This document shows positions 7,873-25,995 of a stretch of DNA of 33,765 nt, in pieces; positions within the stretch are counted from its first letter, which is position 1; every line of letters begins with the position of its first letter. The stretch lies in IMG/VR virus record IMGVR_UViG_3300042923_000605, positions 1 through 33,765 of that record. One strand, given 5' to 3'. The position numbers were made by a program, and so were the translations under genes. Origin of the DNA: a virus. Under the pieces are notes generated by a model, which was given only the letters and a program-made list of their open reading frames with translations, had not been told where the DNA came from and did not search any database.

Positions 7873-9015
7873 TTACGGTTCCACGAACTCCAGCGCGTAA
7901 ACGCCTGAGTCCTTCACCGTGAACGTCGTAATCGACGGCTTCGAGTGCTCACCGGTCTTGTTCTCGAACCACGCGGAACCCGCGTCGAACATCGAACACG
8001 ACACGATCGCCCGACCACGCGACTCCCGATAACCGGGCTGATGGAAGTGACCGTGGCAAACGATCCGAGCATCAGCCATCGGAGACCGTGTCGACGCAGC
8101 CTGATTCGCAACCCACTGCGGGATGCGGTCATACGCTCCCGCGTGGTGTCCGTGAGTGAACGCCACCACCGTCCCGTCAACGTCGACATACGTCACGACG
8201 TCGTACTTCGACGGGGGGTAGTGGAACGTCAGGTTGAACCGGTTGGGGGCGAGGAGCGCGAACGCTTCCTCCACGGTCTTGGCGATGCCGATCCCGTGGT
8301 CCCCGTAGCCGACCTTCCCAGACGCGTTCCGAACCTCGCCGTGATTCGACGGGACCGCCGCCACATGCGTTTCACCCGCGTAGGGGGCGAGGGTCAGGAT
8401 CGCCTGCGTGAGGCGCCGCTGCCAAGCCTGCAACTGCTCCGGGAACTCGAGCGTGTTCGTTGCGATCTGGTTCGGCGCCGACGACGTGATGCCCTCCACC
8501 GGGTCACCGTTGTCAGCGATCACCAGGACACTCGGACGCTGCTGCTTGACCTTCCAAGCGACCTTCGCAAGCGCCTGATGGTACTTGTTGTCAAGGTCGT
8601 CGGGTCCGGTGGAGTCCGGGCCGTCCTTACCGAGTTGCGCATCCGCGAGGCAGACCACCATGGGCAGTCCTGCGGTCTTGGCGGGCTTGATCGGCTTGGC
8701 TGGTCGGATCAGTGACGCAAGCCAGGCGGCGCCGGGCGATTCCTCGTCGGGCGTGTTCCGCTCGAACTGGAAGAAGAAACTGTAGGTGTCTTCCCGGTCG
8801 TGGTGTGTCTTACTCCACTGGCTGACTTTTCCGACGATGCGGAAGGCGTCAGGGTCGAGACCGGCGAGGGTGAGGAGTTCGGCGTAGTCCGTGACCATGC
8901 GCCGGACAGGCCCGGTGGCTGCGGTGCCACCGTTCTCGTCGAACTCGGCGTGCTGCTGAAACTTCTTCGGCGGCGTCGGAACCGTCAACGCATCAAGATC
9001 ATCAGCTAGCGTCAC
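7873..9015 (-). CDS. Calcineurin-like metallophosphoesterase
   Basis: 380 aa from GTG 9015, which overlaps the stop of the preceding gene by 14 bases (GGAG upstream). The two-metal phosphoesterase motifs appear in order: CLADAQLG (about 122-129, Asp with Gln in place of the usual His), ADNGDPVEG (about 168-175), VPSNHGEV (the GNH box variant, about 222), FTHGHHAG and CHGHFHQPGY (the GHxH box). The phage family is related to Mre11/SbcD-type nucleases and other phosphodiesterases. A role in DNA processing or nucleotide clearance is plausible but the substrate cannot be read from sequence. The N-terminal ~110 residues may form a DNA-binding or oligomerisation region. Confidence 0.85.
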   Translation of the reverse strand: MTLADDLDALTVPTPPKKFQQHAEFDENGGTAATGPVRRMVTDYAELLTLAGLDPDAFRIVGKVSQWSKTHHDREDTYSFFFQFERNTPDEESPGAAWLASLIRPAKPIKPAKTAGLPMVVCLADAQLGKDGPDSTGPDDLDNKYHQALAKVAWKVKQQRPSVLVIADNGDPVEGITSSAPNQIATNTLEFPEQLQAWQRRLTQAILTLAPYAGETHVAAVPSNHGEVRNASGKVGYGDHGIGIAKTVEEAFALLAPNRFNLTFHYPPSKYDVVTYVDVDGTVVAFTHGHHAGAYDRIPQWVANQAASTRSPMADARIVCHGHFHQPGYRESRGRAIVSCSMFDAGSAWFENKTGEHSKPSITTFTVKDSGVYALEFVEP

Positions 9016-9223
9016 GGTACTTCTCCACCGTCTCCCGCGTAATCGGGATATCGTTCTTCCGCAACTTCGCCACCAAAGGGTCAATCATCACGGACGTGTC
9101 AGTGATGTACTCCATGACGAGATCCCGGGTTACGGGGTCAGTGGTTTCCAACCATGCCGCGAACGTTGCGGGCTTCTGTCGGCGCGCTTCTTCAAGGTCG
9201 GCGCGGAGCTTGTCGAGTGCCAC
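9002..9223 (-). CDS. 73-aa helical (HTH-like) partner of the metallophosphoesterase
   Basis: GTG at 9223 with GGGGG upstream. A helical, charged protein ending in IPITRETVEKYRDAS, which resembles the recognition part of a helix-turn-helix. It overlaps the phosphoesterase gene by 14 bases and is probably translationally coupled to it. A GTG at 9346 in the same frame could extend it by about 41 residues, but that stretch has lower-quality coding signal. DNA binding is inferred. Confidence 0.65.
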   Translation of the reverse strand: MALDKLRADLEEARRQKPATFAAWLETTDPVTRDLVMEYITDTSVMIDPLVAKLRKNDIPITRETVEKYRDAS

Positions 9224-13906: not shown

Positions 13907-14542
13907 CTAGATCAGTGAGCCCCAACCGGTGAGGGATGGGGCTGTTTGGTTGCGGTCAAGCCAGCGCTTGAGTTTCGGCAGGTTCTGGTCTGGCCCGAAC
14001 ACGAGGTAGGTGCCGTCTACTGAGTCGCAGCCGATGGCGGCGGCATACCGGAGTCGACGTTCCGAGTTGACGCGCCCCATGTGTACCCACTTGCCGCAGG
14101 CCTTCGCTTCACGGGTCAGTTGCGCGGCGTGTGGGCCGAGTTTCCATTCCGTTGTGCCGCCGAGGAAGAGAGCGTCGAACTCGTCCCACGGGACGCCGAC
14201 TGTCTCGGCGCCGTCTTGTGCGACGAACGCTGCCGGGTATCCGAGTTCACGGATCTTCGGGAGCCACGGGGTTGACCGCTCGAGCGTTCCTGCGGCGTCA
14301 GCGACAACATCTGGCGCAGTGGCGAACAGGCACCTTGAGCGTTGCTCTGAGGTGAAACTGTCCAACCATGCCAACCATGCGTCTTCGCCGGGGAACCCTT
14401 TGCCAAAGCATCCGTTGTCGGCGCACCATGCGGCACCCTCGGGAATGATGTTGCCCTGCATGGGCGTGTTTATCATCCCGAGGGCGCCGGCGGTCATGGC
14501 GTTACGGATGGGTTCCGTGGACGGGTTTCCGAAGTACAGCAC
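13907..14542 (-). CDS. dpdA: DpdA-like tRNA-guanine-transglycosylase-fold protein (7-deazaguanine DNA modification)
   Basis: 211 aa from GTG 14542, overlapping the transporter gene by 41 bases. It follows the TGT/DpdA TIM-barrel plan in order: CADNGCFG (40-47, position of the TGT SDSGGFQ box with D42), FATAPDVVADA (73-83), FVAQDG (106-111), ALFLGGTTEWKLG (124-136, like the TGT VGGLSVGE strand) and WVHMGRVNSERRLRYAAAIGC with DSVDGT (152-178). That last segment matches the TGT LMGVGTPED...GxDMFDC region, with D173 and D176 as candidates for the catalytic Asp. DpdA enzymes exchange guanine for a 7-deazaguanine base in DNA, hiding it from host restriction. The C-terminal zinc domain of tRNA-acting TGTs is absent, which favours the short phage DpdA type. 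Substrate assignment is inference. Confidence 0.72.
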   Translation of the reverse strand: MLYFGNPSTEPIRNAMTAGALGMINTPMQGNIIPEGAAWCADNGCFGKGFPGEDAWLAWLDSFTSEQRSRCLFATAPDVVADAAGTLERSTPWLPKIRELGYPAAFVAQDGAETVGVPWDEFDALFLGGTTEWKLGPHAAQLTREAKACGKWVHMGRVNSERRLRYAAAIGCDSVDGTYLVFGPDQNLPKLKRWLDRNQTAPSLTGWGSLI

Positions 14543-15205: not shown

Positions 15206-15831
15206 GTTCCCTCTTCGCATCTGTGGCAGGGCAGCGGGTATTCCGCGTGTACCGTGCACGTTCGTTCGCGTCGCACCTCCGGCACAGTCGACGCCCTCCG
15301 CTTCACCTCAACCTGCGCCGACTCGAACGCGAGACGCGCAGTCCTGCACGGCCCACACGGACGATCCGTCCCACCAGGATGATTAGGGCAATAGGGGGCG
15401 GGGGCGTCAGCCCTCCCTCCCTTCCTCTCCTCTCCCTTCCCCTCCCCTCCTGGCGTGAGTTTGTGCAAACTCACGTGAGTTTCAGTGAGGTTGGGCGAGT
15501 CCAGGTGAGAACACAGACCACACCGTGAGTTCCAGCGGGTGTCGATGCGCTGATGATCGTTGAACCGGGGGATGCTCAAGAACCCCCGCCCATCAGGCAA
15601 AGCGACCCGTTCAACACGCCCCGCAGACACCAACGCGTCGAGCAGCACAGCCCCGTCGACCATGTCGGCCGGGAGGATCTTGAGCTTCAGCCCAAGCGGG
15701 TCATCTGACAGGTGGCCGCGGTCACAGGCGAAGTTCCACATGCCGATGTAGAACAGTCGCGCCTCATACGGGAGGGCGATGATCGCCCCATCGGTCCAGA
15801 ACTCCGGCTTGATGGACCTAATCCGGGGCAT
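15202..15831 (-). CDS. Phage replication-type protein (short)
   Basis: 209 aa opening with MPRIRSIKPEFWTDGAIIAL and LFYIGMWNFACDRGHL. This N-terminal winged-helix-like block is widely shared by phage replication initiation proteins. The family is usually longer, with a DnaD-like or basic C-terminal domain. Here the region after residue 115 becomes Gly/Lys/Glu-rich (about residues 126-140, encoded by a strong polypurine tract at 15412-15456), followed by a Cys/His-rich tail (YCPNHPGGTDRPCGPC...CHRCEEG). Function in origin recognition is inferred from the family; the tail could be a zinc replacement of the usual C-terminus. Confidence 0.72.
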   Translation of the reverse strand: MPRIRSIKPEFWTDGAIIALPYEARLFYIGMWNFACDRGHLSDDPLGLKLKILPADMVDGAVLLDALVSAGRVERVALPDGRGFLSIPRFNDHQRIDTRWNSRCGLCSHLDSPNLTETHVSLHKLTPGGEGKGEERKGGRADAPAPYCPNHPGGTDRPCGPCRTARLAFESAQVEVKRRASTVPEVRRERTCTVHAEYPLPCHRCEEGT

Positions 15832-15991
15832 GACCCTCCCTCAGTGTTTCTCGCCAGAACCACTCACGGTTGACTGCGATGTGTTCGGTGCGTGAGTCGC
15901 CAGGGATTCGACCCTCAGCGACCCAGTAGATGGTGTCCCCGTGTGGAGGGTCGAGACGAAAGCGTCGGTGAGCAGGCTTGCGGTCGGTCAT
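15818..15991 (-). CDS. Hypothetical protein, 57 aa
   Basis: ATG 15991 with GGAG site (GGGAGATCGAG). A small basic and aromatic protein (HRRFRLDPPHGDTIYWVAEG). It overlaps the replication-type gene by 14 bases. Unknown function. Confidence 0.65.
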   Translation of the reverse strand: MTDRKPAHRRFRLDPPHGDTIYWVAEGRIPGDSRTEHIAVNREWFWRETLREGHAPD

Positions 15992-16001
15992 CTCGATCTC
16001 C

Positions 16002-16193
16002 CTAGTCGGTTCGGATGGTGGGTGCGTGTAGCAGCGCCCACCGGATAACACCCAAATCCACGGAACACACCTCATTGATCTCTTCCACGGTCCACCCATG
16101 CCGAACCCACAAGGCACGGATCGCGACATCCCTTTGCGGACGGGATGGGCCTGACGCGTACTCGATGAGGGTCTGCACCCACGGATCAGTCAT
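16002..16193 (-). CDS. 63-aa HTH-like protein
   Basis: ATG 16193 overlaps the preceding gene by 8 bases. The second half, RHGWTVEEINEVCSVDLGVIRWAL, has the spacing of a helix-turn-helix; the first half is a helical arm. Likely DNA binding, target unknown. Confidence 0.65.
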   Translation of the reverse strand: MTDPWVQTLIEYASGPSRPQRDVAIRALWVRHGWTVEEINEVCSVDLGVIRWALLHAPTIRTD

Positions 16194-18620: not shown

Positions 18621-18931
18621 CCGTTCCACCTCACAACTGCGTTCGGGTGCTCGGCGGTACGGATCGCGAGAAGCGTCAGCATCTCAACGAACCCCTCGTA
18701 GTCGCCCCACCCGTTCGCAGGGTTCAGCGACCGGAACTGGTCAGGGAAGGACACCGCGCGCGTGAGGCCTTCGACGGCGCGAGAGTGGATAGCGCGAGCA
18801 CGCTCGCCGTCGAGATCCCGCGACGTGTTGAACACTCCCGCGAGACGCCACATCGGGGTCAGGTTGTAGGTGTGCCCGTCGAATACCTCGACGGTCTCCT
18901 CACCGGTCTCAAGATCAAGGCCCCAGCTCAT
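18617..18931 (-). CDS. Hypothetical protein, 104 aa
   Basis: Soluble protein with DGHTYNLTPMWRLAGV and a helical C-terminal half (FVEMLTLLAIRTAEHPNAVVRWNG). Such sequences are widespread among actinophages without assigned function. ATG 18931 overlaps the upstream stop by four bases. Confidence 0.7.
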   Translation of the reverse strand: MSWGLDLETGEETVEVFDGHTYNLTPMWRLAGVFNTSRDLDGERARAIHSRAVEGLTRAVSFPDQFRSLNPANGWGDYEGFVEMLTLLAIRTAEHPNAVVRWNG

Positions 18932-19942: not shown

Positions 19943-20232
19943 CGTTGTTTCTCCTTTGATGGGTTGACCCCCACGGTGCCCTGCCGCTGACTCGCACAGC
20001 GGTGTACCGTCCCAGGGCGCTACGCCACCGACGACTCCTGCCCCGCGGGGTTCCACCAGGACGACGTCGACACGTAGGTTCTGCGGTCTCAAATGACAGG
20101 GAGCCGGCCCGAAAGGTGGGGCCGCGTCTGCCTCAACGGTTCCGTCCGCATTACCGAACCGTTCGTGGGCTTCGTGGAGTCGAACCACGACGAAAGAACC
20201 GTCAGCCCTGCGCGTCCGCGCGCCTTCATCGG

Positions 20233-23216: not shown

Positions 23217-24380
23217 ATGCCCAGGCCACCACTGCCCCTCGAGACGTGGGGGGAGATTCGGGACTTCACCCACAACGGCAAGCCCGCAGCAAGCGCCTAC
23301 TACCGGGACAGCGATGGGCAGCGCCGCCGGATGATGCGGACGGGGAAGACAAAGACTGCCGCCAGGAACAACCTCACCGCGGCGATCCGGGCACGTATCG
23401 GCGTCAGTGACGACGACGAACTCCTCACCCCCGACACAACACTGCGGGTGCTCTCGCAACAGTGGTACGCGGAGAAGGCGTCCGAGGGCATGAAGCAGGG
23501 AACCCTACGAACCTACAAGGTGTCGCTGGACTCGCACATCATCCCGGAGATCGGCGAAGTGCGACTGTTCGAGGCCACAGTGCCCCGCATAGACCGATAC
23601 CTAAAGGCCCTAACGCGATCGTCCGGGCCGGGAACAGCGACGACCGCGCGCGTGGTACTGAAGGGCATGTTCGGGCTTGCAGTACGGCACGGGGCGATGA
23701 AAGCTAACCCCGTTGCTTCCACAGCCGCCGTGACCGTGAAGCGCGCCCGCCCGGTAGCGCCCGACAAGGCGCAGGTGGTAGGCATCCGGTCCCGGTTTCA
23801 CGAGTGGGACAACATGCTCGACGGCAGAGGGAACCCCAAGGCGACGCAGATCCTCGACGCGTGCGACTTCCTGACCGGAACCGGAATCCGCACGGGCGAA
23901 CTGCTGGCGTTGAAGTGGGCCGACCTGGACCTGCTCGATTGCACCGTGACGATCCGCCGTACGATCGCCGTGGGCGAGGATGGCAGGGCTTTCGTGCAGG
24001 ATCTTCCCAAGACGGACGACTCTGAGCGGACCCTGTTCCTTCCGACTCCCGTCGTGCAGATGCTCGCGAGGCGCCCTAGATACTCCGAGTATGTGTTCCC
24101 GTCCACGACGGGAACGTTCTGGCATCCCGCGAACTTCCGTGCTCGGTGGCGTGAGGCTTTGAAGGGTACGGAGTACGAGGGGACGACGCCCCGCGCGTTC
24201 AGGAAGCTGGTTGCGACGACGTTGCAGCGGGCGCTGGGGTCGCGTGCGGCGGGGGATCAGTTGGGTCATGCGTCGGAGCGGACGACTGAGGCGCATTACA
24301 TTATGCCGACTCGGTTGGGGCCGGTGACGGCGGTGTTGGACGACCTATTCAGCTTACAAATCACAAGGAGCGAACAATGA
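23217..24380 (+). CDS. int: Tyrosine-family site-specific integrase
   Basis: 387 aa. N-terminal arm-binding region (residues 1-70), SAM-like core-binding domain (about 77-175), catalytic domain from about 185. Catalytic residues: R225 in GTGIRTGE, K265 (LPKT) as probable β-hairpin Lys, R329 in RAFRK, H351 in LGH, and nucleophile Y361 in EAHYI. Position 326, usually His in the HxxR box, is Arg here (R326-A-F-R329-K). It integrates the phage at a tRNA gene, consistent with the tRNA-Arg 3' fragment 740 bases downstream. ATG 23217 has AGGAG. Confidence 0.95.
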   Translation: MPRPPLPLETWGEIRDFTHNGKPAASAYYRDSDGQRRRMMRTGKTKTAARNNLTAAIRARIGVSDDDELLTPDTTLRVLSQQWYAEKASEGMKQGTLRTYKVSLDSHIIPEIGEVRLFEATVPRIDRYLKALTRSSGPGTATTARVVLKGMFGLAVRHGAMKANPVASTAAVTVKRARPVAPDKAQVVGIRSRFHEWDNMLDGRGNPKATQILDACDFLTGTGIRTGELLALKWADLDLLDCTVTIRRTIAVGEDGRAFVQDLPKTDDSERTLFLPTPVVQMLARRPRYSEYVFPSTTGTFWHPANFRARWREALKGTEYEGTTPRAFRKLVATTLQRALGSRAAGDQLGHASERTTEAHYIMPTRLGPVTAVLDDLFSLQITRSEQ

Positions 24381-24583: not shown

Positions 24584-24834
24584 TGAGCGACACCCTGATC
24601 GAGCGAAAGCGCGCCCTGCTGGCGCGAATGTGGGACCGATTCGAAGGCGGCAACCTCAACGCTGACGAATGCCCTCAGTGTGGATGGCACGTATCTTCCC
24701 ACGGACTGAGTTGCTACGGACTGGACTGTCCTGGGGGCGGGTGGTCGCCTGCCGCCCGCGAGGGGCGCCTGCCCAGTCGTCTATCTGGTCGCGACCATGG
24801 CTGGCGAGACAGCCGGAACGAAAGTAGCCACTAA
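24583..24834 (+). CDS. 83-aa protein with zinc-ribbon-like Cys
   Basis: ATG 24583 shares a base with the previous TGA. NADECPQCGWHVSSHGLSCYGLDCPGGGW has four Cys and two His, probably one zinc site. The C-terminal codons run into the first integrase arm-like repeats (24822-24843), so the end of the gene overlaps attP. Unknown function. Confidence 0.68.
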   Translation: MSDTLIERKRALLARMWDRFEGGNLNADECPQCGWHVSSHGLSCYGLDCPGGGWSPAAREGRLPSRLSGRDHGWRDSRNESSH

Positions 24835-24850
24835 GTAGCGACTACGCACG

Positions 24851-24887
24851 AAAAAGGCCCCCGCCGAGCTTTCGCTTGACGGGGGCC
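24851..24887 (-). terminator. Strong hairpin between integrase operon and att
   Basis: GGCCCCCG (24856-24863) pairs perfectly with CGGGGGCC (24880-24887). AAAAA (24851-24855) makes a T run on the minus strand, so termination is best for leftward transcripts, but the stem should also stop the rightward integrase operon. Confidence 0.65.
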
Positions 24888-24914
24888 GATCCCTTACGGG
24901 AGTAGGTAACTTCC

Positions 24915-24957
24915 TGGTGCACCCCCTGGGACTCGAACCCAGAACCCACTGGTAAAG
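24915..24957 (-). other. tRNA 3'-end fragment (Lys-like), minus strand
   Basis: On the minus strand, T-arm CTGGG-TTCGAGT-CCCAG (24926-24942), acceptor 3' strand GGGGTGC (24919-24925), discriminator A and an encoded CCA (24915-24917), with GGGTT as variable region. No 5' half exists: the matching GCACCCC and D-arm are missing upstream. The sequence resembles the 3' half of actinobacterial tRNA-Lys, so it is either an alternative or former attachment core. It is not a functional tRNA as it stands. Confidence 0.7.
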
Positions 24958-25033
24958 GGTGAGAGTTGTCCTGACGTGGATTTTTATTGACTGACCGGAG
25001 GTTTGTAGCGACCGGGCCGCGCTAGCTGGATGA

Positions 25034-25051
25034 ACCGAGATATACCGAGAT
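25034..25051 (+). repeat. ACCGAGAT direct repeat in attP
   Basis: ACCGAGAT at 25034-25041 and 25044-25051, ten bases apart, between the two tRNA fragments. The helical-turn spacing suggests a binding site, possibly for Xis. Confidence 0.5.
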
Positions 25052-25118
25052 TCCGGGGGTTTCCGCCCGGTAGACGGATTGAAAGTAGCGACTAAGTAGC
25101 CACCTATACCCCAGTCCG

Positions 25119-25165
25119 TTGGTTTCCGGTACCAAAGGTCGCAGGTTCGATTCCTGTCGGGGGCA
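25119..25165 (+). other. attP: attP core: 3' 47 nt of tRNA-Arg(CCG)
   Basis: Anticodon stem-loop TTGGT-TTCCGGT-ACCAA with anticodon CCG (25126-25128), variable AGGTC, T-arm GCAGG-TTCGATT-CCTGT (25141-25157), acceptor CGGGGGC (25158-25164) and discriminator A. The D-arm and the 5' acceptor GCCCCCG are absent. On integration such a fragment restores the host tRNA 3' end. Its place downstream of int and beside arm-type repeats makes it the best attP core. Confidence 0.8.
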
Positions 25166-25174
25166 CAACACAGA

Positions 25175-25216
25175 GAGAGGCCCCTTCCCTAGAAAACACT
25201 AAGGAAGGGGCCTCTC
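25175..25216. terminator. 14-bp perfect hairpin just beyond attP
   Basis: GAGAGGCCCCTTCC (25175-25188) pairs with 25203-25216 over a 14-base loop. No T run follows on either side, but the length would stop or strongly pause polymerase and insulate the att region. Confidence 0.6.
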
Positions 25217-25461
25217 AGCATGTACGGGGCGGGGAGCGCGGGCGGGGGTTCGTAAGCCCGGACGTGAGCCGAGGCACCCTACGGTGCACCTTTGATCCTG
25301 TAGCCGCCTGTACAGCACAAGAACGCAGGGGGGTAGCGGTGCGTAACGGTGACCAGTACAGTAGGACCACCATCACATGTCGGTGGGCGCTCGTAGAATG
25401 AGCGAAGGCCCCGCACCTGCGGTAACAGGCCGGGGCACGGTCCAACTAACAGGAGTTGAAC
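25217..25461 (+). promoter_or_regulatory. Promoter and leader of the 25462-25970 genes
   Basis: No gene in this 245-base stretch. TAGAAT at 25393-25398 is a plausible -10 box, without a good -35. The leader then has a GCCCCG/CGGGGC stem (about 25410-25437) before AGGAG and the ATG at 25462. These two genes may be expressed from the prophage independently of the lytic operons. Confidence 0.4.
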
Positions 25462-25758
25462 ATGACTGAGTCTAACGTGAGGGTGGGGACACAGGTCGCC
25501 CTCGACGACGTGAGGGAGCCGAGGTGGCAGTACAGTTACGTCGCGAAGTACGCGGACGGCTCTGGTGTGCGTGAGCGGGTCACGTTCGACACGCTCGCTA
25601 AGGCCGAGACATGGCTCCGCGACAACGCCGATGACGTGACCGCGTGGAACGCAGAGGTGCCCCCGGGGGACGTGCTCGTGGCGGCTGTTGAGCGCCGTCA
25701 GGTGTGGGAGCCGGGCGAATGGGAACCGGTCACCGTCGCCGCTGAGGGGAGTGCGTAA
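25462..25758 (+). CDS. 98-aa hypothetical protein, possibly lysogeny-expressed
   Basis: ATG 25462 with AGGAG six bases upstream. Beta-rich N-terminal half (WQYSYVAKYADGSGVRERVTF) and acidic C-terminal half. No motif recognised. It stands alone on the plus strand between attP and the lysis cassette, with its own promoter region and a strong terminator after the second gene. This is where phages often carry lysogenic-conversion or exclusion genes. Confidence 0.7.
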   Translation: MTESNVRVGTQVALDDVREPRWQYSYVAKYADGSGVRERVTFDTLAKAETWLRDNADDVTAWNAEVPPGDVLVAAVERRQVWEPGEWEPVTVAAEGSA

Positions 25759-25970
25759 TGATCTTCGGAGACTGCCCCTACTGTGGACAGCCGGTATGGT
25801 TCGCGATCCCCGACGACGTGGCACTGCCGGCGCTCGCGAAGGTCGACTGCGAGCATTGTGACTCCCAATTCTGGGAGCGGTTCTCCCGCATCGACCCGCG
25901 CGCCTACCGACTCGATCAGGTGATAGTGGATGAGGACACGGAACGAGTCCTTGAGGTGCGAGAGGCCTGA
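25758..25970 (+). CDS. 70-aa zinc-ribbon protein
   Basis: The ATG overlaps the preceding stop by one base (TAATG). CPYCGQPVWF and CEHCDSQFWE, about 24 residues apart, form a classical four-Cys zinc ribbon; an acidic tail follows. Likely nucleic-acid or protein binding. Coupled to the 98-aa gene upstream. Confidence 0.75.
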   Translation: MIFGDCPYCGQPVWFAIPDDVALPALAKVDCEHCDSQFWERFSRIDPRAYRLDQVIVDEDTERVLEVREA

Positions 25971-25995
25971 TTCCTAGCCCCGGGAACGGCGAAAA

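Follow-up and report, generated by a model that had tools for sequence, protein, structure and literature searches.

Why a phage should carry the 3' ends of two different tRNA genes, on opposite strands and about 160 bp apart, behind a single integrase gene is the question raised by the record analysed here. This record of IMG/VR comprises 33,765 bases, without end repeats, and its whole length is referred to as the window. An initial annotation, which had the coordinates and spacing of both fragments right, placed them in one attP region, considered that either could be an attachment core, and proposed a switch in integration site, a dual-specificity integrase or a remnant of recombination with another prophage. 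The reading favoured here, with a probability of roughly 0.85 on the basis of sequence comparison, is that the window holds one complete tRNA-Lys attP module together with an orphan half of a tRNA-Arg attP, left by an exchange of integration modules.

Positions 24915-24957 read CTTTACCAGTGGGTTCTGGGTTCGAGTCCCAGGGGGTGCACCA on the minus strand, with a perfect T-arm, the 3' strand of the acceptor, a discriminator A and an encoded CCA. Homologues of this fragment in Nonomuraea and Propionimicrobium are called as tRNA-Lys(CTT) by ARAGORN, and the phage genes matching it carry a tRNA-Lys annotation; what had been described as a Lys-like 3' end with CCA is identified through these homologues as the 3' end of tRNA-Lys(CTT). 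Zero exact copies of the Lys 38-mer were returned by an exact search of 84,980 species genomes (genome_contigs). On the plus strand, positions 25117-25166 match the 3' end of a complete tRNA-Arg(CCG) of Microbacterium chocolatum at 100% (50/50, E 6e-17), in agreement with the identity first proposed, but the fragment measures 50 nt and not 47. The tRNA-Arg(CCG) locus is common to two M. chocolatum "plasmids" (NZ_CP015811.1 and NZ_CP015812.1), in one of which it adjoins thrC and a homoserine dehydrogenase gene; both resemble pieces of a chromosome, possibly with an element at tRNA-Arg.

Perfect T-arms number three in the window, including those of the Lys and Arg fragments, compared with a chance mean of 0.4 per window in a first-order Markov simulation of it, and in the two fragments the tRNA sequence runs over 43-50 nt and is also conserved among other phages. 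The third T-arm-like sequence lies at 20189 on the minus strand and is also present at 14251 of the related phage G005; no acceptor CCA was seen. A complete phage tRNA or tmRNA was rejected, as ARAGORN reported neither in the window and Rfam gave zero matches.

The window is syntenic with two sister phages, G001 (IMGVR_UViG_3300042923_000617, 41.9 kb) and G005 (IMGVR_UViG_3300042923_000444, 33.7 kb), and a backbone common to all three is shared in patches at about 90% identity. Since about 7.8 kb of G001 are missing from it, the window is a sizeable fragment of the genome of a temperate tailed phage. Short stretches are held in common with Microbacterium phage Footloose. Most of the related phages compared originate from a single metagenome, and phages with an Arg-type system come from the same one as G001 and G005. 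Complete tRNA-Asp(GTC) genes are found in G001 (18828-18902) and in two further relatives, G004 (2720-2794) and G006 (8974-9048); ARAGORN detected none in the window, and no tRNAs were found in the endolysin-related records G007 and G008. A hairpin-like sequence, GCCCCGCACCTGC...CAGGCCGGGGC, together with the beginning of a small ORF, is found again at differing positions in the window (25408-25477), G001 (35820-35890) and G004 (about 21.2 kb). The features on which the argument depends are the following.

23217..24380, plus strand: tyrosine integrase, 387 aa (PHROG integrase, 1.8e-50; Pfam PF00589)
24822..24843, plus strand: proximal (P) pair of putative arm sites, AAGTAGCCACTAAGTAGCGACT; identical pair in G001, also in G010
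24849..24890, plus strand: hairpin-like inverted repeat, GGCCCCCGCCGAGC...GGGGGCC, between P arm and core, read from the sequence; identical in G001
24915..24957, minus strand: tRNA-Lys(CTT) 3' fragment with CCA, putative core of the complete attP; kept in G001, also in L004
24931..24937, minus strand: 7-bp T-loop of the Lys core, inferred strand-exchange segment; the breaks of G006 and G009 fall inside it
25083..25104, plus strand: distal (P') pair of putative arm sites, AAGTAGCGACTAAGTAGCCACC; same in G001 and G010
25104..25106, no strand: junction of Lys-type and Arg-type homology; homology to G001 stops at 25103 and homology to G005 starts at 25107
25117..25166, plus strand: tRNA-Arg(CCG) 3' fragment, 50 nt, putative orphan half-attP core; matches M. 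chocolatum, core present in G003-G006
25251..25270, plus strand: distal arm pair of the Arg system, CGTAAGCC and CGTGAGCC; matched to sites of G005

The tyrosine integrase is 91% identical to that of G001. No second integrase and no serine recombinase were found in the record (one match to PF00589, none to PF07508), nor any relatives of the integrase in genome_contigs. The first His of the HxxR motif is missing in this family, the motif reading RAFR in the window and G001 and GAFR in G008 and G010. Two small ORFs, the arm pair at 24822, the hairpin, the Lys core and the arm pair at 25083 follow in this order 3' of the gene, and the Lys core is thus flanked by two arm-repeat pairs (AAGTAGCNACTAAGTAGCNAC) behind the sole integrase gene found. 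The hairpin is probably the transcription terminator of the integrase operon. The same layout of Lys core and both arm pairs is found in G001, without an Arg core.

Conservation between these two phages follows the same elements. Compared with the spacer at 24963-25072, where about one quarter of the positions differ, no changes are found in the P arm and hairpin (24820-24907, Fisher p 5e-8), in the Lys core (24913-24962, p 2e-5) or in the P' arm (25073-25103, p 7e-4), each value referring to stretches within a single pairwise alignment, with tests framed after the alignment had been seen. A more distant comparison is offered by G010 (IMGVR_UViG_3300013100_000008, also L050), whose integrase is 44% identical to that of the window, with a well conserved N-terminal region, and which carries the same arm repeats in the same order around a different tRNA core; the repeats therefore appear to belong to the integrase family of the window. 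In the window, G001 and G010 alike, the core is flanked on either side by arm-type repeats, putative integrase binding sites, and the Lys module has an adjacent tyrosine integrase. This integrase is probably the cognate of the tRNA-Lys site, its counterpart in G001 belonging to a phage with a Lys core only. The same tRNA-Lys core is also carried, at 329-385, by L004 (IMGVR_UViG_3300044765_000081), an unrelated circular 16-kb element with repeated contig ends whose XerC-like integrase (contig 15412-16089) is of a third kind; several unrelated integrases thus appear to target tRNA-Lys. Another tRNA-Lys-like core lies within the annotated immunity repressor gene of Brevibacterium phage AGM1 (L038:3001-3044), an arrangement to be compared with integration-dependent immunity.

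The Arg core is associated with a different system. Exact copies of it occur in G003-G006, the integrases of which form a separate family, 42-97% identical among themselves and about 25% identical to that of the window. G003 is bounded at both ends by the 50-bp Arg core, as expected for the ends of a prophage or an att junction, and the isolate-derived record IMGVR_UViG_2744055068 is also bounded by a variant of it. In G005, five CGT[AG]AGCC arm sites are distributed on both sides of the Arg core; two distal sites of this type are kept in the window, at 25251 and 25263, and the proximal sites of G005 are absent from it. With arms on the distal side only and no Arg-type integrase found in the record, the initial view that either fragment could be the attachment core was too even-handed, and the "one attP region" does contain attP sequences but is better described as one complete attP and half of another.

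The pairing of cores, arms and integrases also bears on dual specificity, according to which the single integrase of the window would act on both cores. Both are found no more than about 750 bp downstream of the integrase gene, and two potential attP sites per phage have been reported in the Gordonia phages Splinter and Vendetta (PMC5559632). The arm sites of the integrase, however, surround just the Lys core, the phage with the most similar integrase carries a Lys core and no Arg core, and the Arg core is found with a separate integrase family and separate arms, which makes a dual-specificity enzyme extremely unlikely and sets this part of the initial annotation aside.

The comparison of related attP regions that had been advised gave a Lys module or an Arg module in each phage, and the window joins the two. 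From 25107 onwards the homology to G005 amounts to 93.6% over 220 bp, and the switch from G001-like to G005-like sequence takes 3 bp, about 10 bp outside the Arg core. A switch in integration site and a remnant of recombination with another phage, listed initially as separate possibilities, are thus both upheld and would here be one and the same event. A junction of this kind might instead be an assembly chimera of two phages, given that related phages of both types share one metagenome, but this is very improbable: at the junction there is no repeat whose length could lead an assembler astray, each side differs by 6-12% from the available sister phages, and a reverse composite is present in G006 and a further composite in G009 (IMGVR_UViG_3300042923_000742).

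Despite a diverged flank, the Arg core shows no change relative to G005, nor do the bases next to it (p 0.01, in a test framed after the alignment had been seen), which fits a recent exchange and also continued use. If the half-site could still be used, a second prophage in the same host would supply an Arg-type integrase, which would bind the core and the P' arm and allow entry or recombination at tRNA-Arg. The core is indeed identical to Microbacterium tRNA-Arg, the P' arm sites are likewise unchanged relative to G005, and the Arg-type phages share their metagenome with the sister phages. The proximal arm, however, is lost, and in well-studied phage tyrosine integrases, such as those of lambda and L5, both arms are required for integration between attP and attB; the absence of decay, moreover, is accounted for by a recent exchange. 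Continued use is accordingly judged improbable, and under the module-exchange reading the Lys site would be the active one and the Arg half, alone, inactive.

The composites in other phages run in the opposite direction. G006, which has a terminal repeat of 127 bp, carries an Arg integrase and an Arg attP together with half of a Lys core and a P'-Lys arm; this Lys half abuts the 3' end of the integrase gene, the final codons and stop of which are built from Lys-core sequence. In G009 the same Lys half lies directly downstream of an integrase of a third, unrelated type, which has a tRNA-like core of its own upstream. In G004, where the integrase shares 97% identity with that of G006, only a decayed P'-Lys trace, CCACTAAGTAGCCACCT, is left, and a scan with CCCAGAACCCACTGGTNNAGGGTNA for phages with a Lys half recovered none beyond those already found.

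In window coordinates the break points fall at 24935 in G006 and 24936 in G009, both within the T-loop at 24931-24937. The T-loop is the probable strand-exchange segment in mycobacteriophage Ms6 (PMC1762012), and the position of the two breaks suggests a junction made by an integrase. Half-attP junctions might then be the work of integrases themselves, with the Lys integrase recombining its attP at secondary sites that lie where the integrase genes of other prophages end, an idea prompted by two unrelated integrase genes being joined to the Lys attP within a single T-loop of 7 bp, at positions that differ by one base. This is unlikely, and the junction of the window itself, outside the Arg core, offers no sign of such an origin; were it true, site-specific recombination would drive the switching of integration sites and the leftover halves would record such events.

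The direction of the exchange can be approached from the same composites. Relative to G001, the only extra DNA of the window is the 881 bp at 25104-25984, with homology restarting at 25985, and this would also fit the insertion of an 881-bp segment, comprising the Arg half-site and two small ORFs, into a Lys phage. Such an insertion competes with the replacement of an Arg module on direction alone and is possible, if somewhat doubtful. In G005, the P'-Arg segment adjoins a terminator similar to that found behind the G001 module. The leftover halves of G006 and G009 also lie on the backbone side, adjoining the backbone terminator, a position suggesting that whichever half is closest to the backbone was resident first. 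As the insertion also fits, we infer the order of replacement in the window, with the Lys module as the newcomer, rather than read it directly.

The most likely course can be outlined as follows. Related phages would have swapped their integration modules at a break located about 10 bp ahead of the Arg core, and the Lys module would most probably have replaced a resident Arg module, leaving behind the Arg core and distal arm without proximal arm or integrase. The present phage is predicted to insert into a host tRNA-Lys gene at its 3' end and to rebuild that gene, using its sole integrase, the P arm pair, the tRNA-Lys(CTT) core and the P' arm pair. Predictors relying on tRNA matches alone would report both sites; arms on both sides of a core, considered together with sister genomes, indicate the core that is likely to be live, a rule usable elsewhere.

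The Lys module resembles known systems in its layout. In Cluster J mycobacteriophages, the integrase gene is followed on its 3' side by P1P2, a tRNA 3' core of about 44 bp and P3P4 (PMC3706429), and Pixie and Tweety integrate at tRNA-Lys, with a 47-bp core in Pixie and arm sites on both sides (PMC3203893). The window, in contrast, has an extra core and one arm of a foreign system directly behind. In Splinter and Vendetta, the two potential attP sites are at tRNA-Lys and tRNA-Arg, and their usage was left unresolved (PMC5559632); like the window, these phages combine candidate cores of both isotypes with one integrase per phage. The Lys match of Splinter, however, is most likely a complete tRNA-Lys(TTT) gene, 2.6 kb from the integrase, whereas the window has 3' fragments in close proximity, and Splinter was for this reason rejected as an exact precedent. 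In tRNA-dependent lysogeny, phage tRNA sequence is linked to a tRNA attB (PMC10865867); there the phage encodes a full tRNA of the isotype that is disrupted, and the core measures about 10 bp. The window, unlike these systems, has no complete tRNA, and its cores, at 43-50 nt, have the length needed to restore the host tRNA. Literature searches on remnant attP sites yielded mainly work on transgenic vectors.

A parallel in principle is the well-known exchange of integrases and modules between mobile elements, reviewed for archaea (PMC8371274), and the mosaicism of temperate phages (PMC3945230), where, as here, related genomes swap modules and the insertion site changes. A change of insertion site by module swap is known in phages, but the intermediate step is seldom caught, and the related phages compared here include some with just one of the two modules, either Lys or Arg, as well as composites in both directions. 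In contrast to the precedents, half of the old site would be retained in this group, and in more than one phage, so that the replacement can be read from the sequence.
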